Shown: piece by piece, positions 30,696 through 39,058 of the stretch | Layout: every line of letters begins with the position of its first letter | How positions within the stretch are numbered: the first letter of the stretch is position 1 | NCBI RefSeq assembly: GCF_000158195.2 | Contig: NZ_GL987993.1 | Coordinates: 1 to 64,000, forward strand | From: Fusobacterium mortiferum ATCC 9817 | GTDB lineage: Bacteria > Fusobacteriota > Fusobacteriia > Fusobacteriales > Fusobacteriaceae | Length of the DNA: 64,000 bases | Reading direction: 5' to 3' | Translations under genes and position numbers: made by a program | Notes under the pieces: model-generated | The model's database searches: none | Told to the model about the DNA's origin: nothing | Seen by the model: only the letters and a program-made list of their open reading frames with translations

Positions 30696-30765
30696 TGGAA
30701 TTGTAGAAATAAAAATGATAATGTATATATACAGTAATAAAAAAATTATAGGGGGATTAATTATT

Positions 30766-31728
30766 ATGGAAAGACCAAGTTATTTTGCAGTGATACCAGC
30801 AAGTGTGAGATATGATGAGAGGCTTAAACCTTCAGAGAAAATTTTGTATGCAGAGATAACAGCTCTGATAAATATTAAAGGGTATTGCTATGCAACAAAT
30901 CAATATTTTTCAAAGTTATATGGAGTACATAAAAACTCTATAAGTATTTGGATAAATAATCTTATTAAGTGTGGGTACCTCAAGGTAAAGTATGTGATAA
31001 GAGAGATAGAGGGACAGAAGAGACAGGAGAGAAGAATATATGTTGTAAAGAGAAAGGAGATAAAAAAAGAAATAGAGACAATACAAGAAAAAATTGTTAG
31101 TGAAAGTGTAAAAGAGTACGAGGAAGATAGAATTTTGAAAGATGAGAAGAGTGAGGAAAAAGAGGAGTGTAAAGAAAAATTAGAGGAAATAGCACAAAAA
31201 AATTTAGGAGACTCTCAAAAAGATATTATAGAGGGTACCAATAAAAAGCTGGAGAAGATTAATACAAGTAGATTAGTACAAGAAGATTATATATTACACA
31301 CACACTCACAAAAAGAGAGTGAAAAATTTCCTGTGATAAGAGAGATTTTAGAAAAGTATAATCAAGTTGGATTACCTAGTTTTGAATTTCCCCCAGATAA
31401 CCATATAATTTTAAAAGCCTATGGAGAATTGGGAGCAAGTGGAGTTTTTAAAGCATTGGAGATAATGGGAGAATCAGAGTTTGTAAAAAATAATATGAGT
31501 GTTAATACAATTTTTAAACTGGAGAATTTGAAAAAAGCTCTCAATGGAAGTTTTAAAAATAGGGATAGTAGAGTGTATTTTGAGAGGGAAAAGAAGTGTG
31601 AAAAGAAAGAGGGTGAGAATGAGAAGAAAAGAGATAGAGAGTTAGAAGAGTTTTTAAATAGTAATCCTGATAATAGAGATGATATTCCTGAACTATTTAG
31701 TAGTGAAGAATTATTTGATAGAAATTAG
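30766..31728 (+). CDS. replication-initiator-like helix-turn-helix protein
   Basis: A 320-residue protein. The first 100 residues match the HTH_36 type found in phage and plasmid replication proteins: FAVIPASVRYDERLKPSEKILYAEI, then CYATNQYFSKLYGVHKNSISIWINNL and a basic strand. A long charged linker follows, and the C-terminal third (FPVIREILEKY onward) resembles DnaD/replisome organiser tails. The ATG at 30766 has AGGGGG 9 nt upstream; the upstream ATG at 30715 has none. Next comes a DnaC-like loader, the usual pairing of phage replication modules. Confidence 0.75.
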   Translation: MERPSYFAVIPASVRYDERLKPSEKILYAEITALINIKGYCYATNQYFSKLYGVHKNSISIWINNLIKCGYLKVKYVIREIEGQKRQERRIYVVKRKEIKKEIETIQEKIVSESVKEYEEDRILKDEKSEEKEECKEKLEEIAQKNLGDSQKDIIEGTNKKLEKINTSRLVQEDYILHTHSQKESEKFPVIREILEKYNQVGLPSFEFPPDNHIILKAYGELGASGVFKALEIMGESEFVKNNMSVNTIFKLENLKKALNGSFKNRDSRVYFEREKKCEKKEGENEKKRDRELEEFLNSNPDNRDDIPELFSSEELFDRN

Positions 31729-31738
31729 GAGGGAGAGT

Positions 31739-32545
31739 ATGAAGTGTCAATACTGCGGAAAAGAGTATGTAAAAAATGAGAGTGAAGGGATTGAGTATCT
31801 GCCAGAATTTATTAGAAAGCATATAGAGTATATTCCTAGTTGTGATTGTTTGGAAAAAATAAAAGAGAGAGAAAGAGAAGAAGAGATAAGAAAACAACAA
31901 GCTGAATCTATAAAAAATCGTGTTAAAAAATATAGGGATATCTCTGTAGTGGATAGTAAATTTTTAAAAAGTACCTTTGAAATAGCTGATATGAGTGAAA
32001 AATATATGAAGGTAGCTCTTCGTTATGCTAAAAGTTTTATGGAAAAGAAAATGGATATAGGGATAATATTTTATGGAGGAGTAGGAGTAGGGAAAACATT
32101 TGCTACTGCCTGTATAGCTAATTATCTAATGAGTAGAGGAAAGAGTGTATTTGTAATAAATCTGGGATTATATTTACTCAAGCTCACTAAAGAGTGGGGA
32201 CAAGGGGAGATGGAGTTGCTAAAAATTGTAGAAAATTGTGATTTATTGATAATAGATGATTTTGGAGTAGAAAAATCTCTTGAGGATAAAAATGCAAGTT
32301 GGAGAGCAGAGAAAATATATAATCTCATAGATAGTAGATATAGATGTGGAAAACCTTTAATTATCTCTACTAATTTGGAATTTGATGAAGATGAGGATAG
32401 ATGTGAGATAGCTAGAAGATTTTCTGCAAAAGGAAAGAATAGAATAAGGGATAGAATAGTTGAGATGTGTTACCCTATAAAAGTGGAAGGAAAAAGTCGT
32501 AGAAAAGTTAATAAACAAAGATTTTATGAGCTTTTAAAAGAATAA
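31739..32545 (+). CDS. DnaC-like helicase loader ATPase
   Basis: A 268-residue AAA+ protein of the DnaC/DnaI/IstB group. An N-terminal zinc-type motif, MKCQYCGKEY with later CDC, is typical of phage and DnaI-like loaders. Walker A is GGVGVGKT near residues 106-113 and Walker B LLIIDDFG near 165. A sensor-like STNLEFDE follows. AGGAGGGAG selects the ATG at 31739, 11 nt after the initiator gene. It is not beside an IS transposase, so IstB is unlikely. Confidence 0.85.
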   Translation: MKCQYCGKEYVKNESEGIEYLPEFIRKHIEYIPSCDCLEKIKEREREEEIRKQQAESIKNRVKKYRDISVVDSKFLKSTFEIADMSEKYMKVALRYAKSFMEKKMDIGIIFYGGVGVGKTFATACIANYLMSRGKSVFVINLGLYLLKLTKEWGQGEMELLKIVENCDLLIIDDFGVEKSLEDKNASWRAEKIYNLIDSRYRCGKPLIISTNLEFDEDEDRCEIARRFSAKGKNRIRDRIVEMCYPIKVEGKSRRKVNKQRFYELLKE

Positions 32546-32585
32546 ATAGAGTAAGTGGTAGTAAGTTGTAATAAGTCTTAGATAC
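32546..32585 (+). repeat. second array of 10-bp phased repeats
   Basis: Consecutive 10-mers read ATAGAGTAAG, TGGTAGTAAG, TTGTAATAAG and TCTTAGATAC. The array and following bases align with 30656-30716 at roughly three quarters identity by eye, so the initiator and loader genes are bracketed by related repeats. Confidence 0.7.
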
Positions 32586-32684
32586 TGGTATTGAGAAAAG
32601 AAAAATGTTACCATATGTGTAGGAATCATGATTACCTAATAAATCTAAAAAGTCAAAATTAAAAAATTAAAGGAGGAATGTAGT

Positions 32685-32984
32685 ATGTCAGTAGTAACAA
32701 CAGTTCAAAAGGAGATTGAGAGTCTAAAAAATTCTATAAAAAGGGAGAAGGCAATAGAGTCAAATATATTTGATATGACAGCAGTGATAGAACATATAGC
32801 AGAGTTGAAAGAAGCCTCAGAACCTATGGCAGAGGAAAGTCCATACGAATCATATGAGGAATGGCAAGCAGCAGCAGAAAAAGAGCTAAAAGGATATCAA
32901 AGCTCATTGGCAACAATAGCAGAGAACAAGGAGATATTAGTGGCATTGGAAACTTATATATCAGAGCATCCTGAAGGAGTTTAG
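32685..32984 (+). CDS. small acidic helical protein of unknown function
   Basis: A 99-residue acidic protein, mostly helical by composition, with coiled-coil-like N- and C-terminal thirds. No family recognised. AAAGGAGGAATG gives a very strong ribosome site. It lies between the replication genes and the endolysin, followed by a strong terminator, so it belongs to the island. Confidence 0.75.
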   Translation: MSVVTTVQKEIESLKNSIKREKAIESNIFDMTAVIEHIAELKEASEPMAEESPYESYEEWQAAAEKELKGYQSSLATIAENKEILVALETYISEHPEGV

Positions 32985-33015
32985 AAGTTATAAGAGTTAT
33001 TTAATGAGGTAAGGT

Positions 33016-33071
33016 AGGGAGAAATTACTTGAAGTGTAGAGCAAAACTCACTTAGGGAATTTCTCCCTTTT
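33016..33071 (+). terminator. terminator after the 99-residue gene
   Basis: A perfect 11-bp outer stem (AGGGAGAAATT / AATTTCTCCCT) with a small inner AGTG/CACT helix, then TTTT. It ends 17 nt before the endolysin start. Confidence 0.75.
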
Positions 33072-33088
33072 GTTATGTAGGAGGATAT

Positions 33089-33463
33089 ATGAATAAGGCA
33101 AGTGTAAGGAGTAAGAAAAAATTAGAGGGAGTAGATAGTAGGTTAGTACTGTTGGTAGGATATGCTTTGGCAATATCTCCAGTGGATTTTTTTGTAAATG
33201 AGGGGGTAAGAAGTGAGAAAAAACAAAAAGAGTACTATAAGCAGGGAAAAAGTAAATGTGATGGGGTAGTAAATAGAAGTAAACATCAAGATGGAAAAGC
33301 AATAGATGTGTATTATGTGGGCTGGGAGAGTGATGATAGTTTAACAGATGGCAGATGGTATATTTTAATAGAGAGCTTTAAAAAGGCTGGAAAGATGTTG
33401 GGATTAAAATTGAGGTTTGGATATGACTGGGGTTGGGACAACCCACATATAGAATTAAGGTAG
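33089..33463 (+). CDS. phage-type M15 peptidase (endolysin)
   Basis: A 124-residue zinc peptidase of the VanY/L-alanyl-D-glutamate endolysin kind. The zinc-site pattern is present: SKHQDGKAIDVYYVG supplies His and Asp, and GWDNPHIELR supplies the second His; NEGVRS resembles the catalytic Arg region. No signal peptide, so a holin would be needed for release. GTAGGAGG precedes the ATG. Small size and neighbours suggest a phage-derived lysis gene. A duplicated 3' end of a related gene lies 60 nt downstream. Confidence 0.88.
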   Translation: MNKASVRSKKKLEGVDSRLVLLVGYALAISPVDFFVNEGVRSEKKQKEYYKQGKSKCDGVVNRSKHQDGKAIDVYYVGWESDDSLTDGRWYILIESFKKAGKMLGLKLRFGYDWGWDNPHIELR

Positions 33464-33527
33464 CACAGAAGATAAACTTCTGTGTCTCAATAATCATAGT
33501 CGTTCTATAAGAACTCCTTGATTATTG
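33464..33527 (+). other. two hairpins downstream of the endolysin gene
   Basis: First hairpin: CACAGAAG / CTTCTGTG with a 5-nt loop, starting at the endolysin stop. Second: CAATAATCA / TGATTATTG with an inner GTTCT / AGAAC helix. No T-run follows either. Confidence 0.6.
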
Positions 33528-33567
33528 GAATTGGGGCTGGGATAATCCTCATATAGAGTTAAGGTAG
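33520..33567 (+). pseudogene. remnant of a second M15 endolysin C-terminus
   Basis: In frame this segment reads DYWNWGWDNPHIELR followed by a stop, nearly the same as the FGYDWGWDNPHIELR end of the intact endolysin. Several codons differ at third positions, so it is a diverged paralogue tail and not a recent copy. The rest of that gene is missing. Confidence 0.8.
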
Positions 33568-33569
33568 CA

Positions 33570-33597
33570 CAAAAAATAAAAAGACCCCGAAGGGTTT
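33570..33597 (-). terminator. terminator of the minus-strand small peptide gene
   Basis: On the minus strand ACCC-TTCG-GGGT forms a short stem with a stable UUCG tetraloop, followed by a T-rich run. It lies just after the 29-residue ORF. Confidence 0.65.
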
Positions 33598-33605
33598 GAG
33601 GAACA

Positions 33606-33695
33606 CTATCTGTTCTTATACCACCACCAAACAATGATAAGTAGAACAATGAAAGTTCCACCTTCAATAGAGTTGATGTTGATTGTGATGTACAT
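33606..33695 (-). CDS. 29-residue hydrophobic peptide, type I toxin-like
   Basis: A short minus-strand ORF in what is otherwise a 441-bp gene gap. It has a perfect AAGGAGG ribosome site 8 nt before the ATG. The peptide has a polar N-terminus, a hydrophobic core of about 13 residues (TFIVLLIIVWWWY) and a basic end (KNR). That layout is typical of membrane-acting type I toxins and of some phage lysis peptides. A terminator with a UUCG loop follows. The 5' leader carries a 15-bp inverted repeat whose 3' arm runs into the ribosome site. I know no named family that matches; the toxin role is inferred. Confidence 0.65.
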   Translation of the reverse strand: MYITININSIEGGTFIVLLIIVWWWYKNR

Positions 33696-33700
33696 ATAGT
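33673..33700 (+). promoter_or_regulatory. possible antisense RNA promoter
   Basis: TTGATG and TATAGT lie 16 bp apart on the + strand, inside the small peptide gene and facing its leader. The RNA would begin near 33707 and so start with the complement of the peptide's ribosome site. Boxes are imperfect. Confidence 0.35.
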
Positions 33701-33709
33701 GTACCTCCT

Positions 33710-33801
33710 TATAAATGGTATTCTACCTTGCTTAAGGGCAGAATAAAAGCCCCAATAAAAATTAGGGCTAATATTCTAAGCTTAATAATACCATTTATAA
33801 G
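33710..33801. repeat. 15-bp inverted repeat in the peptide gene leader
   Basis: CTTATAAATGGTATT (33710-33724) is perfectly complementary to AATACCATTTATAAG (33787-33801). Inside lies another 9-bp helix (AGCCCCAAT / ATTAGGGCT, one G-U). In the minus-strand mRNA the outer stem ends at the AAGGAGG site of the peptide gene and could hide it. Confidence 0.75.
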
Positions 33802-33904
33802 TCCCCAACAGAGTGTCAATCAAAGATTGACTTATGTAGCTCTATTAAGTAATTAGATTATAGCATAAAGTCAATAGAAAGTCAAAAAGGAGAGGAGGGA
33901 GAGA

Positions 33905-34087
33905 ATGGGAAAAGTATTGGATATGGTAATCAAATTTGTAAAGTATTTTATCTGTAAATGGTTTGCAACAAGAGTAATAGAAAGGATAGTGATACTATTA
34001 CTAGAGGAACTAGTAAAAAGAACAGATAGTAAGCTAGATGACAGAATCTATCAAGCAGTATTTGAAGAAGTAGAAAAGGAGGTATAG
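33905..34087 (+). CDS. small amphipathic protein of the phage-like island
   Basis: A 60-residue protein with a hydrophobic/aromatic N-terminal half (IKFVKYFICKWFATRVIERIVILLLEEL) and an acidic C-terminus. It looks like a membrane-associated or amphipathic helix protein. No family recognised. GGAGAGGAGGGAGAG gives a strong ribosome site. It heads a run of small genes ending at 34744, possibly lysis accessories. Confidence 0.65.
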   Translation: MGKVLDMVIKFVKYFICKWFATRVIERIVILLLEELVKRTDSKLDDRIYQAVFEEVEKEV

Positions 34088-34128
34088 AAAAATAAAGTAA
34101 CAGAGTGAATAAAAAAAGGAGGTTTAAA

Positions 34129-34194
34129 ATGAAAAAGCATAGCTATATAAAGTATATGATGTGGATAGGAAAAAGAGCAAATGAATGGGGGTAA
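34129..34194 (+). CDS. 21-residue basic peptide ORF
   Basis: A short ORF with an excellent AAAGGAGG ribosome site 7 nt before the ATG. The peptide is basic and aromatic (MKKHSYIKYMMWIGKRANEWG minus the last residue is its core) and its stop lies 2 nt before the next start. It may be a real small protein or a translational coupler for the holin-like gene. Confidence 0.5.
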   Translation: MKKHSYIKYMMWIGKRANEWG

Positions 34195-34196
34195 AT

Positions 34197-34415
34197 ATGG
34201 AGTATATAAAAATAATTAGTGGAGTTTTAGCAATATTTATAGGTTATCACAAATTTATACTTTCTCTGCTAGATAGAAAGATAGACAAGGAGATCTGGGA
34301 GAGGGAGAAAAAACTTTTAGAAAGAATAGAGAAGGAAAATAGAAAAAATCTTGTAGAAGGACTTAGAAGAATAGAAGAAAGAATAACAAGAATTGAAGAA
34401 AAGTTGATGAGATAA
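34197..34415 (+). CDS. XhlA/holin-like membrane protein
   Basis: A 72-residue protein with one N-terminal membrane helix (about residues 4-26) and a highly charged coiled-coil tail (KLLERIEKEN, RRIEERITRIEEKLM). Phage XhlA-type proteins, which act with holin and endolysin, combine a coiled coil and one membrane segment, though usually in the opposite order. The ATG at 34197 follows GGGGGT by 4 nt. Close to the endolysin gene, so a lysis function is plausible. Confidence 0.6.
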   Translation: MEYIKIISGVLAIFIGYHKFILSLLDRKIDKEIWEREKKLLERIEKENRKNLVEGLRRIEERITRIEEKLMR

Positions 34416-34438
34416 AATAATAGGAGGGGTTTAGAACT

Positions 34439-34744
34439 ATGGATAATAAAAATAAAAGAAGTGGAAGAAAAACAGGAAAAATAACAGTAGGAATGAATCA
34501 TGAGGAGTATATTTTCTATAAACTATCTAGACTCTCAAAGGTAGATAAAAAATTAGCTAGAGCTATGGTAAGAGATTTAGGGGTATGGACTAGCCCTAAA
34601 AAAGCAGCTGCATATTTAACAAAGTATGTGTCAACAATATATGAGAAAATAAATTCTAAAGAGATTTTTGCTAAAAAGGTTGGGAATAAATATTTGATAC
34701 TGACAGAGAGTTTGATATTACTTTTAGAAGGGTTAGATAATTAG
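34439..34744 (+). CDS. small basic protein of unknown function
   Basis: A 101-residue protein with a strongly basic start (KNKRSGRKTGK) and a helical middle (KVDKKLARAMVRDLGVWTSPKKAAAYL). The basic tail might bind nucleic acid. No family recognised. AGGAGGGG precedes the ATG. Last gene of the island, followed by a double hairpin terminator. Confidence 0.7.
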   Translation: MDNKNKRSGRKTGKITVGMNHEEYIFYKLSRLSKVDKKLARAMVRDLGVWTSPKKAAAYLTKYVSTIYEKINSKEIFAKKVGNKYLILTESLILLLEGLDN

Positions 34745-34748
34745 AAAA

Positions 34749-34819
34749 GCTATCCAAATATCTTAGGATAGCCAATGGAAAAGGTAGTTAAAGTTTTGAC
34801 GGACTGACTACCTTTTTTT
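34749..34819 (+). terminator. double-hairpin terminator closing the island
   Basis: First hairpin GCTATCC / GGATAGC (34749-34772), then AAAGGTAGT / ACTACCTTT (34780-34815) followed by a T-run. The second is a good intrinsic terminator. Confidence 0.8.
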
Positions 34820-34870
34820 ATTAAGTACGCCTTTTAGCAAAAAAACGCACTACTAATTTTACAAAACAAA

Positions 34871-34898
34871 GTATCTTCTAATTTAAAGATACCCTTTT
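34871..34898 (+). terminator. terminator-like hairpin inside the inverted-repeat segment
   Basis: GTATCTT pairs with AAGATAC around an 8-nt loop, then CCTTTTT. It could stop + strand read-through from the island into the autotransporter gene. Confidence 0.5.
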
Positions 34899-34914
34899 TA
34901 TTAATAAAAGTCAA
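34886..34914 (-). promoter_or_regulatory. promoter inside the inverted-repeat segment, facing away from the autotransporter
   Basis: On the minus strand TTGACT and TATCTT stand exactly 17 bp apart. Inversion of the segment would turn it towards the autotransporter gene, with a start about 80 bp before the ATG. The -10 box shares bases with the hairpin at 34871-34892. Confidence 0.45.
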
Positions 34915-35018
34915 TAGTTTTTCCATTTTATTTATAAAAATTAAGAGAATTTTTATAGATAAAAAAACTCGTTTTTGCTAAAAGAAGTACTTTTTATATC
35001 TTAAGGAGGGAGTTTATT

Positions 35019-38000
35019 ATGAAAAGGGAATTAGAAAAGAGTTTAAAAAGATATTTAAAAAGAAAAGTTAGAATAACTTTAGGTTTTGTAACAGCTTTTG
35101 CTATTATGGGGAATGTGGGGCTTGCTTCTGAAGCTATAGAAGGGAGTCTTGACTGGAGTATGGAGAAAGCAAAAGAGTGGACAGAAGGATATGATGGTAG
35201 TAATAAAATAAAAGAAATAACGGGAGATAGAGTTTCAATATCAGAAGCAGGGGAGATAAAGTTAGATGGTATAGTATTAGTAACTGTTCCTCAAACAAAT
35301 ATCTCTAACAAAGTTTTAACTAATATTAATAATACAGCAGATTTATTAGATAAACATATTAATGGAAATACTGAGCTAGTAATAGGAAAAGATGCTGATG
35401 GAAATGAAATTGTTGGGTATAATGAAGGACTAGCTTTACAAAATAACGGAGAAGTAGTAGAACAAGATACAGGTTTTGAAATTTCTGGAGAGGGAAATAT
35501 ATTTGTAAATGATGGAGAGTTAAATAAATCTCAAAAATCACTAGAGGGAGCCACTATAGTTAATAAGGGAGAGATTACTTTTACTGGAGATGGCGGACAA
35601 AGTATAGGAAGTAATGGAGTAGGTTATAATTATGGAATAATAGCTAATGATGGAGTTAGTGGACAATATATATTAGGAACAGGATATAATTATGGAATAA
35701 TAGCCAATAGTGGAAATACAGGACAAAACATAGGAAGTAATGGAATAGGTTATAATTTTGGATTAATACATAATAAAGGAAATTATGGGCAAAATATAGG
35801 AAGTAATGGAGTAGGTTATAATTATGGAGTAATTATAAATACAAATAACAATAGTGCTCAAAGTATAATAGGAACAGGATATAATTATGGAATATTATCT
35901 GGCTTATATGGGCAATTTATATCAAAAGATACAACTACTAATACGTCAGGAATAGGATACAATTATGGAATTATTAATGTTAATACTAATGCTTCTGGTC
36001 AGTATATAGGAAAAGACAAAGGAGGAAAAGTTTATAATTATGGAATAATAAATAATAATGGTGGAACAGCTATTAATATATCTTCAGGAGAAGCGAGCAA
36101 TTATGGAGTAGTAAAAAATACAACAGGAGCAGTATTTAATGGTAAAGTTGATAACTATGGAATAGTTATCTATACTACTGCTAATCAAGGAGCTTTAGGA
36201 ACTGGTACAAATAAAGGAGTGGTTTTAGATAGTACTTACACTCTTGTTAGTGGAAAAAATGATGGTGTAATAGAATTATCATCAACTGGAAATATAAGTG
36301 GAGATAATGATAAAACTTATTATACAAAAGATAATACAATAGATTTTTCTCAAGACTTAACTGGAAATGTTTTAACAGCAGTTATAACTGGAGATGATGT
36401 AGCGTATAATTATAACGGTTCAGATGAATTAGTATTAAATGATAGTGTTGTAACAGGATATTTTACTGATGGTGGAAAGGGAACTTTATTAAATGTTTCA
36501 AATGATTTAGTATTGGTTAATAGTACAATAAATGCTGTAACAGATATTGAAAATAGAGATGATGTAACAGCAGTTAAACTAGATGGAGGAACTTTAACAC
36601 AAATAGGAGAGAGCCAAATAGTAGGAAAAGTTGAAGGAGAGGGAGGTATAAATTATCTAGCTTCTCAAAGTAAAGAGCAATCTATAAGTATAAATGGTGA
36701 AGTAACTCTTAGAAATGCTACTGCAGATGAAGTTATTAATTATGGAATAACTAATAATAAAACTGATATTAGTTTTAAAATTTTAGAAGCAGATAAACTT
36801 ACTTTAGATTTTACTGTTGAAGATAGTGAAAATGTAAATAAAATAGTTTTAGGGGATAATGTAGTGATAGGAGAAGCAACAACTACAACTCCTGTAATAG
36901 ATGGAAGTTCTTCAAGTGAAAAAATAAATTTAACTATCAATGATATTACTGGAATACATGGTGATATAACTCTTGGAAATAATGATGATACTCTAACTAT
37001 TGCTAAAAACTATGCATATGATGGAGTTATAGATTTAGGTAATGGAACTAATGATATTTTAAATTTAAGCCATTCAGATGAAGGAACTACTCATGTAAAA
37101 AATGAAGAAAATACTTTTAACTACAAAGTTCATAATGTAGAGGAAATAAATTTAACTGGTGGACACTGGCATATAGACAATACTAAAACAGAGATTACTG
37201 GAGATAAAGTTAATTTAAATATTTCTGGAGAGTTACACGTAGAAGTAAATAGTCTTGGAGCTGGAAAAGGTGTAGAAACTAGTATGGACGGAGTAGGTAA
37301 AGATGTAAATGATTTTACTGTATCAGCAGGAGAAGGAATAAAATTTGTAGTAGGAGATAATTTTAATGCTTTAGAGCCAAGCTACTCTTTTGAAACTGAA
37401 TATAAACTAGGGGCAGATACTGAAATTAAAGGAGCAGTTATCTTTGATACAAGTGCTTCTACAGTAACTGAAGATTCAGTAGGACATATTAATATTAGAG
37501 TAAAAGAAGCAGATGAATTAGGACTAGGGGATTATGCAGCTATCTATGATACTGTAATTAAAAATCTAAGTGAAAATGATGCACTAAGAAATGCTATAAA
37601 CTATCAAGATGGAGGACAGTTCCAAGATATGATTAAAAATACTGACTTCCAAGCTTCTGCTTTCTATACAACAGGATATGCAGTAACTAAAGATGTAACA
37701 GATATGTATATGGATACAGTAGAAAGCTTTGGTAGAAAAGCTGGAGCTGGAGAATGGTTAGCATTTGGTAAATATTTAAGCTCTGATACAGAGTTTGATG
37801 GTGGTAGTTCATCAAGAGGATATGATGGAGATATTACAGGAACTGTTGGAATGGTAGAGTATGGAGTAAACGATACTACATCTTATGGAGTAGTATTTGG
37901 AAAAGGAGATACTGAGATAGATATTACTGGTGGTGGAAAACTAGATGGAGATAACACATATATTGGTGGTTATGTAAAACATACAACAGAGGGTGGAATA

Positions 38001-38582
38001 GAATTACTAGGAAATATTGGATTTACTAAGAGTGATTTAGATGCTAAGTTCTCTACACATGATACAGTAGGTGGAGTAAATTATAATATTATCTCTGATG
38101 GAAGTTCTGATGCTGATGCAATAACTCTATCATTAAAAGCTAAGAAACCATATAGTATAAGTGAAACTTTAAGAGTAGAGCCAATGTTAGGAGCTAGATA
38201 TACTCTTATCAATCAAGATGCAGTAGAAAGTAGTGATAGAAACTTTAGAATAGATGAGAGAGATGTAACTGTATTAGAAGGAATGGCAGGAGCAGACTTA
38301 GTAAAAGATTTCTCTGTGGCTAATGGAAAACTTTCACTTAAGACAGGAGTAGAGGTATCACTTCTAAGTGTAAGTGATTCTGATGATGCTAGATATACAT
38401 TATATGGAAATGAAATAGCATTAGTAAACGAAGAAGAGATAGCAGATAGTAAAGTTTCAGCTCATGTAGGATTTGGTTATGAGCATGAAAATGGAGTAGG
38501 AGTAGATGCTAGATACAAATTTATCTGGACAGATAAAGGAGATAGTAATAGAGCAGAAGTAGGATTATCATATAGATTCTAA
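35019..38582 (+). CDS. autotransporter (type Va) with repeat-rich passenger
   Basis: A 1187-residue outer-membrane autotransporter. The leader (residues 1-36) is long and basic (MKRELEKSLKRYLKRKV) before a hydrophobic core, as in known fusobacterial autotransporters. The passenger has degenerate repeats from about 190 to 390 built on G-Y-N-Y-G-I-I and then Asn/Asp/Thr-rich beta-helix-like sequence. From about residue 905 (SFGRKAGAGEWLAFGKYL) a beta-barrel domain runs to a terminal SYRF. No protease motif seen; adhesion is a guess. AAGGAGGG precedes the ATG. Upstream lies an inverted-repeat segment that may switch expression. Confidence 0.92.
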   Translation: MKRELEKSLKRYLKRKVRITLGFVTAFAIMGNVGLASEAIEGSLDWSMEKAKEWTEGYDGSNKIKEITGDRVSISEAGEIKLDGIVLVTVPQTNISNKVLTNINNTADLLDKHINGNTELVIGKDADGNEIVGYNEGLALQNNGEVVEQDTGFEISGEGNIFVNDGELNKSQKSLEGATIVNKGEITFTGDGGQSIGSNGVGYNYGIIANDGVSGQYILGTGYNYGIIANSGNTGQNIGSNGIGYNFGLIHNKGNYGQNIGSNGVGYNYGVIINTNNNSAQSIIGTGYNYGILSGLYGQFISKDTTTNTSGIGYNYGIINVNTNASGQYIGKDKGGKVYNYGIINNNGGTAINISSGEASNYGVVKNTTGAVFNGKVDNYGIVIYTTANQGALGTGTNKGVVLDSTYTLVSGKNDGVIELSSTGNISGDNDKTYYTKDNTIDFSQDLTGNVLTAVITGDDVAYNYNGSDELVLNDSVVTGYFTDGGKGTLLNVSNDLVLVNSTINAVTDIENRDDVTAVKLDGGTLTQIGESQIVGKVEGEGGINYLASQSKEQSISINGEVTLRNATADEVINYGITNNKTDISFKILEADKLTLDFTVEDSENVNKIVLGDNVVIGEATTTTPVIDGSSSSEKINLTINDITGIHGDITLGNNDDTLTIAKNYAYDGVIDLGNGTNDILNLSHSDEGTTHVKNEENTFNYKVHNVEEINLTGGHWHIDNTKTEITGDKVNLNISGELHVEVNSLGAGKGVETSMDGVGKDVNDFTVSAGEGIKFVVGDNFNALEPSYSFETEYKLGADTEIKGAVIFDTSASTVTEDSVGHINIRVKEADELGLGDYAAIYDTVIKNLSENDALRNAINYQDGGQFQDMIKNTDFQASAFYTTGYAVTKDVTDMYMDTVESFGRKAGAGEWLAFGKYLSSDTEFDGGSSSRGYDGDITGTVGMVEYGVNDTTSYGVVFGKGDTEIDITGGGKLDGDNTYIGGYVKHTTEGGIELLGNIGFTKSDLDAKFSTHDTVGGVNYNIISDGSSDADAITLSLKAKKPYSISETLRVEPMLGARYTLINQDAVESSDRNFRIDERDVTVLEGMAGADLVKDFSVANGKLSLKTGVEVSLLSVSDSDDARYTLYGNEIALVNEEEIADSKVSAHVGFGYEHENGVGVDARYKFIWTDKGDSNRAEVGLSYRF
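35590..36170 (+). repeat. degenerate tandem repeats in the autotransporter passenger
   Basis: About nine units of roughly 18-25 codons, each centred on GYNYGII or a variant, alternating with GQNIGSNG or GQYI blocks. Two near-identical DNA units (GGAAGTAATGGAGTAGG) recur at about 35608 and 35799. Such repeats favour length change by recombination. Confidence 0.8.
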
Positions 38583-38623: not shown

Positions 38624-38667
38624 AAGGAATAGATGGTAAGCCATAAAACACTTATCATCTATTTCTT
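38624..38667 (+). terminator. terminator of the autotransporter gene
   Basis: A 17-bp stem with two G-U pairs (arms 38624-38640 and 38651-38667) and a 10-nt loop. The T-run is interrupted (TTTCTTTAT). Confidence 0.7.
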
Positions 38668-38695
38668 TATATGGAGAAATAGTGGTATTGTAATA

Positions 38696-39058
38696 ATGGT
38701 AAGAATGGAAAAAACATATATAAGAAAGAGGGAAAAGAAATATGCAATATATAGTTTATTTGATAAGAAGAGATTAACGAAATATTATGATAATATAGAA
38801 GAATTAGAAGAAAATGTATATATTGCTAAAGATGAAAAAACTGGGAAATTTGCATTTTTAAGTTCAAGATTTTCTACAAAAACTGAATATAAAGAGATAA
38901 TTAAGGTATTAGATACAGAGATTAATGAGTATCTTTATATAGGAATTGTAGCTGAAGAGGAAAGAACAGATATTTTAACCAAGATAGATAAAATAAATAT
39001 AAAAGAGTTAAGTGAAAAAGAATATAATAAAATAATTAATTTACTTCCAAAAAATTAA
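38696..39058 (+). CDS. hypothetical protein
   Basis: About 120 residues, rich in Lys, Glu and Tyr, with no signal peptide or membrane segment if the start is here. I recognise no family. The open frame extends to 38633, but that part lies in the terminator of the previous gene. ATGs at 38696 and 38705 are both possible and neither has a good ribosome site. A terminator follows at once. Coding status is moderately likely. Confidence 0.6.
   Translation: MVRMEKTYIRKREKKYAIYSLFDKKRLTKYYDNIEELEENVYIAKDEKTGKFAFLSSRFSTKTEYKEIIKVLDTEINEYLYIGIVAEEERTDILTKIDKINIKELSEKEYNKIINLLPKN

Follow-up and report, generated by a model that had tools for sequence, protein, structure and literature searches.

The question raised by this locus is whether a short stretch of DNA with inverted ends, situated directly before an autotransporter gene, is a promoter that can be turned round and thereby switch this gene on or off. 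The DNA analysed (the window) covers the initial 64 kb of contig C7 from a source genome of 2.67 Mb in eight contigs (G000, in the following the own genome), the gene content of which points to a Fusobacterium, probably F. mortiferum. Our analysis suggests that the window very probably harbors a phase-variation switch in which a tyrosine recombinase inverts a promoter segment of 114 bp. The features involved are as follows.

34439-34744, plus strand: gene for a small DNA-binding protein of the HTH_17/excisionase type, 101 aa
34745-34822, plus strand: two hairpins, the second with a terminal T run (-25.4 kcal/mol, z -5.4); probably a terminator that separates the HTH gene from the switch
34825-34850, plus strand: left 26-nt recombination site (predicted), GTACGCCTTT TAGCAA AAAAACGCAC
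34835-34840, plus strand: six-base core TAGCAA of the left site, placed by the rule of positions 11-16
34851-34964, no strand: inter-site segment of 114 bp, predicted to invert
34886-34914, minus strand: promoter TTGACT-N17-TATCTT, directed away from the autotransporter (OFF orientation)
34926-34964: hairpin of A/T pairs within the segment (-11.4 kcal/mol, z -5.6)
34965-34990, minus strand: right 26-nt recombination site (predicted), reverse complement GTACTTCTTT TAGCAA AAACGAGTTT
34975-34980, minus strand: core of the right site (six bases), which reads TAGCAA on the minus and TTGCTA on the plus strand
35003-35010, plus strand: ribosome-binding site AAGGAGGG
35019-38582, plus strand: autotransporter gene, 1187 aa (ORF; PF03797, 85 bits), the presumed controlled gene

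The inverted ends before the autotransporter, from which the original prediction started, are real. As ungapped arms (34823-34843 and 34972-34992) they comprise 21 nt, are 90% complementary and enclose 128 nt, and their plain inverted-repeat score of 15 was equalled by none of 150 dinucleotide-preserving shuffles of positions 34500-35100. They are best described as two 26-nt sites, 114 bp apart, and the stricter score of 31 for such a site pair was equalled by 4 of 500 shuffles. The window pair is strong, yet not unique on its own, and it is the comparative evidence that decides. The minus-strand promoter postulated within the segment is present as well, running from 34914 to 34886 away from the gene with 9 of 12 matches, three such sites occurring in 401 bp where 1.3 are expected. 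Likewise, the view that the autotransporter has no good forward promoter holds, as none is listed between the sites and the one close to the gene overlaps with its start codon, and the promoter scan (401 bp) revealed no usable forward promoter for this gene outside the segment. In the window, inverted repeats flank a promoter-bearing segment before a gene, which is the anatomy that defines an invertible promoter, and the occurrence of both orientations, which the definition also demands, is found at related loci. Such elements are reportedly the subject of a study on invertons by Jiang et al. 2019.

What had been taken for a terminator-like hairpin within the segment consists of A/T pairs, and the terminator scan gave 0 sites. 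Judged by eye, the pair of hairpins at 34745-34822 looks like the terminator of the upstream HTH gene; the opposite strand folds too (z -5.3). Structured RNA was considered and rejected, the two Rfam matches obtained being both far under their gathering scores. The 101-aa protein encoded upstream stays under the cut-offs of both HTH_17 (26.3 bits, cut-off 27) and TIGR01764 excise (24.2 bits, cut-off 28.8). Its homologues are encoded in 15 of 61 genomes of the family, and many surface-gene loci of relatives have one of them upstream. The HTH gene belongs to a phage-like cassette (HTH_36, IstB/DnaC-like, 99-aa, M15 peptidase, and HTH_17; window 30715-34744) that is repeated on contig C8 (L044) and that is also encountered in the related genome G001 (L052), the peptidase there being left aside; the M15 peptidase upstream of the switch has four matches in viral contigs. 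A viral origin was discarded, since neither the site nor a protein related to the HTH protein turned up in any viral contig, and plasmid and phage searches gave no match. On the 3' side of the autotransporter, a protein of 141-149 aa, family unassigned, is encoded in the window (38633-39058) and, in very similar form, at L044:7567-8016 (locus C8:51k).

A short segment with inverted ends, in a type of locus that as a whole is present several times, might also be a MITE or another small transposed element, as the original prediction had allowed. We regard this as extremely improbable. When the genome was searched for the same ends, as had been proposed for a check, only the two exact ends were recovered, no other copy having fewer than three mismatches and every other match in the own genome having three, and the inter-site segment is found nowhere else at comparable length. 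Furthermore, pairs in relatives occupy a fixed place before the start codon and their flanks are common to paralogues. At the switch, no target-site duplication is evident by eye. An origin of the ends in G001 and at the own-genome locus C8:280k from a TnpB insertion element was rejected too; the respective ORF is TnpB-like by eye and has no Pfam match, and at C8:280k polysaccharide genes come next after it.

Related switches in the own genome and in G001 were located by their position behind a homologous HTH gene or by leader homology, without a repeat search, and their sites were aligned by eye. At C2:425k, the two sites before another autotransporter gene share the core TAGAAC, and what looks by eye like an extended -10 element is directed away from the gene. 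The autotransporter of this locus (L045:4766-9301) displays an unusual domain order, the barrel (PF03797, 107.5 bits) being followed by a C-terminal OmpA domain (PF00691, 63.7 bits). At C8:280k, the core is TACTGA in both sites, and the later genes of the locus are polysaccharide genes. In G001, TGATGA is the core of both sites at two loci that hardly differ from each other, and the promoter there matches the consensus (TTGACA-17-TAAAAT) and is directed away. Each of these pairs has a private six-base core that is identical in its two sites, which for the window is TAGCAA. The autotransporter at C8:51k, which hardly differs in leader and start from that of the window, possesses one 26-nt site, a hybrid at L044:5181-5206, and lacks the segment; judging from its sequence, it is probably a silent remnant with no promoter in view. 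When 507,504 bases of own-genome sequence (some of it overlapping) were scanned with a matrix that had been built from these very sites, the three intact pairs of the window, C2:425k, and C8:280k were obtained and no further inverted pair and no direct pair was detected. Two objections raised against inversion lose their weight in this comparison. The mismatched dinucleotide within the repeats sits in the outer half-sites, which are unlike on the left and right at other loci too, whereas the central six bases are identical. As for the lack of a recombinase gene nearby, the enzyme can be expected to work in trans, given that related switches occur at scattered places in the genome, and candidates are encoded elsewhere.

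In the relatives G007-G010, sites follow the pattern GTTC NNN TTTAT NN ATAAA NNN GAAC, and 34, 52, 50, and 57 sites with at most three mismatches are present in G007, G008, G009, and G010, respectively, as compared to 2, 4, 1, and 4 for a reversed-pattern control; the own genome has 0. In a collection of 84,980 species genomes, from which near relatives are possibly absent, exact matches to this pattern are limited to four single sites. Among the matches listed, 85 loci of G007-G010 with such sites or with the HTH gene were analysed, which is no full census, and they yielded 75 pairs and 11 single sites. Leaving out three pairs without a clear target, 72 pairs with an assigned target remain. 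Inversion by a tyrosine recombinase calls for an overlap of 6-8 bp that is identical in partner sites when these are read as inverted, and one of six bases is displayed by the cores of the window and by 71 of the 72 pairs; the central six bases are identical in all of these 71 in the inverted reading and in 0 of 72 in the direct one, partners having been chosen partly by inverted-reading similarity over 26 nt, so that a direct partner loses about two matches and is still allowed. With shuffled partners (2000 trials), central-six matches amount to 19.7 on average and to 32 at most. After removal of duplicates, the match persists in 52 of 53 pairs and the main excess over shuffles is limited to positions 11-16; smaller excesses at some outer positions, e.g., 20-22, are put down to relatedness. 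The sole pair of the 72 with unlike cores is G009:1564473 (L230; contig C1). A six-base match at positions 11-16 is as expected of the overlap of a tyrosine recombinase, and strand exchange by tyrosine recombinases of the Xer type with a six-base overlap would require matching cores. Inversion by a serine recombinase of the Hin/Mpi type seems quite unlikely to us. The sites of such enzymes (hix) measure about 26 bp, which agrees with the 26 nt observed here, and the own genome encodes a 234-aa serine recombinase with a partial match to Mpi, but the matched core consists of six bases and not of two.

Seven proteins encoded behind site pairs in the relatives were scanned over their whole length, and the autotransporter barrel PF03797 was detected in six of them. 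According to a count of N-termini by eye, roughly two thirds of the 72 targets are autotransporter-like, and other targets are MBOAT and OMP-barrel proteins as well as small HU-like proteins. At L216 (G007:C1:2933959), a short ORF that is IS200 transposase-like by eye lies between the site pair and the autotransporter.

Evidence for inversion comes from the comparison of paralogous loci. Of 68 locus pairs whose flanks agree by 80% or more on either side, five fit better when the inter-site DNA is turned round, and these derive from two loci only. For G007:2099442 and its paralogue G007:2279891, the inter-site DNA scores 124.5 when turned vs 18.5 as it is, with 152 of 175 columns identical in the turned and 108 of 198 in the unturned alignment, while 69 of 83 and 71 of 80 columns are identical in the flanks. 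By eye, the promoter of G007:2099442 (TTGATT-17-TATATA) is directed toward the gene, though it is weak by score. Both orientations are therefore encountered at related loci, namely at G007:2099442 as compared to G007:2279891 and to G009:1145044 and, in a weaker case, at G008:3783353; the window copy is known in a single orientation, from one genome of the species. In addition, there are single hybrid sites (L161, L170, and C8:51k) in which the outer half of one site is joined to that of the other, as would result from a precise loss of the segment.

According to a promoter matrix that stems from general knowledge and is uncalibrated, the promoters of the 72 pairs are directed away from the gene in 47 cases, toward it in 3, and in both directions in 8, and are weak in 14. 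The call "toward" at G009:3026262 is doubtful on inspection; the clearest such case is G007:165899, the target of which resembles by eye a polysaccharide chain-length protein without a Pfam match. As most promoters are directed away, the window copy is probably OFF. The scarcity of ON copies is what speaks most strongly against simple random flipping, and the bias could be due to an OFF-biased recombinase or to selection in culture. The prevailing direction might also be understood if the 26-nt sites, each of them a near palindrome, were operators of a DNA-binding protein, e.g., of the HTH_17 type, arranged around a fixed leftward promoter that never inverts, the more so as an HTH gene is situated just upstream at part of the loci. 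This explanation is very unlikely, though it may apply at an individual locus, since operators do not need a matching center, yet the central six bases match almost throughout, and only in the inverted reading. Moreover, most of the 72 pairs were found via the site pattern and not via the HTH gene, and both the turned segment at G007:2099442 and the single hybrid sites, from which the segment is gone, speak against operators. The invertible promoter of the original prediction is thus supported by the anatomy of the window, by the related switches, by the core match in the inverted reading, and by the turned segment at a related locus.

The recombinase search that had been suggested gave nine tyrosine and four serine recombinase matches in the own genome. 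Two types of tyrosine recombinase are common to the own genome and the site-bearing relatives. One is a Xer-like enzyme of 325 aa, which is encoded in 11 of 12 genomes of the genus and is intact in the own genome. The other is a short protein of about 185-189 aa (PF00589, 69 bits), in which the residues R, K, HxxR, H, and Y are recognized by eye and whose gene adjoins an HU gene in all eight genomes inspected. Both types are also present in G005 and G011, where no pairs were detected in the few loci scanned. The frame of the short recombinase is open in G007-G011; in the own genome, G001, and G005 it is broken at a T run some 15 codons in, with both parts intact apart from this, and either a slippage switch or an assembly error might account for the interruption. 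The loci concerned are as follows.

L326 (G000:C5:102111-102521), L324, and L337: gene for the short tyrosine recombinase with interrupted frame, in three genomes

Being short, encoded beside HU, and possibly controlled by slippage, this tyrosine recombinase ranks first, and we infer that it is the best candidate for the enzyme acting on the sites. A second group of short tyrosine recombinases in G007, G009, and G010 (L327, L331, L332, and L333) is transcribed away from adjoining autotransporter gene sets, in which some autotransporter frames are short (107, 182, and 402 aa). The broken frame in the own genome, the weak inner half of the right window site (6.4 bits by the matrix), and the C8:51k copy without a segment would also suit a former switch that is now locked, the system being real in relatives whereas here either no recombinase is produced or the sites have degenerated. 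Such a loss has some plausibility, but we consider it the less likely course; cores match in all three intact pairs of the own genome, the same interruption with intact parts occurs in G001 and G005, as in slippage-controlled genes, and a second recombinase, that of 325 aa, is intact.

For a functioning switch the following mechanism can be proposed. A tyrosine recombinase encoded elsewhere would bind the two 26-nt sites, each composed of arms of about 10 bp and a 6-bp core, and strand exchange inside the identical cores would turn the 114 bp round. In the present orientation, the promoter would run to the left into the terminator, leaving the autotransporter promoterless (OFF), whereas in the turned orientation transcription from it would cross the right site and the ribosome-binding site before entering the autotransporter gene (ON). 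We infer that the window copy itself inverts, that its promoter works, and which recombinase acts upon it. The window switch would then be one member of a family in the genus that is placed before genes for autotransporters, small HU-like proteins, outer-membrane proteins, and polysaccharides.

Several known systems resemble the one proposed here; in mechanism it would correspond to the fim switch of E. coli and to the master-invertase promoters of Bacteroides fragilis, and it is similar to the RecV switches of Clostridioides difficile. As in fimS of E. coli, which is served by FimB and FimE, the promoter lies within a short invertible element, and FimB and FimE are short tyrosine recombinases similar in size to the candidate of about 189 aa. 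However, fimS is a single local switch with the recombinase genes beside it, whereas here several loci are involved and no recombinase gene adjoins. In C. difficile, the tyrosine recombinase RecV acts on imperfect inverted repeats at several switches per genome, one of 154 bp lying before the operon it controls (PMC7446863), and imperfect inverted repeats before a gene and several switches per genome are features of the present system too. In contrast to the window switch, the flagellar switch of C. difficile has no promoter inside and acts after initiation. B. fragilis has many invertible promoters before polysaccharide and outer-membrane genes and master recombinases that act in trans, with Mpi inverting 13 regions, and Tsr19 is a tyrosine recombinase that works on one local and one distant promoter (PMC4747536). 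G007-G010 possess many sites of one pattern, upon which a single enzyme might act likewise. Unlike in B. fragilis, the system here belongs to another phylum, the cores of the own genome differ by locus, the targets are mainly autotransporters, and the recombinase is a candidate only. In open-licence literature, searched by title or the start of the abstract, no description of invertible promoters in Fusobacterium was found.

It is conceivable, and offered as a tentative extension that we would not yet favor, that the genus possesses a surface-coat switchboard of two layers. A master tyrosine recombinase encoded next to HU, gated in some species by slippage at the T run, might flip tens of promoters before autotransporter and capsule genes, and in the own genome the private cores might keep recombination within each pair. 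Most switches would be maintained OFF, so that a cell would display few of its surface proteins at any one time. Fusobacterial autotransporters are important for adhesion and disease. If the proposed switching is true, the genomes of sequenced isolates would show mainly OFF copies, few of these proteins may be made in laboratory cultures, and such variation would escape conclusions based on a single isolate. By means of the 26-nt rule, the switches of the genus could be listed and tested by PCR or long reads.
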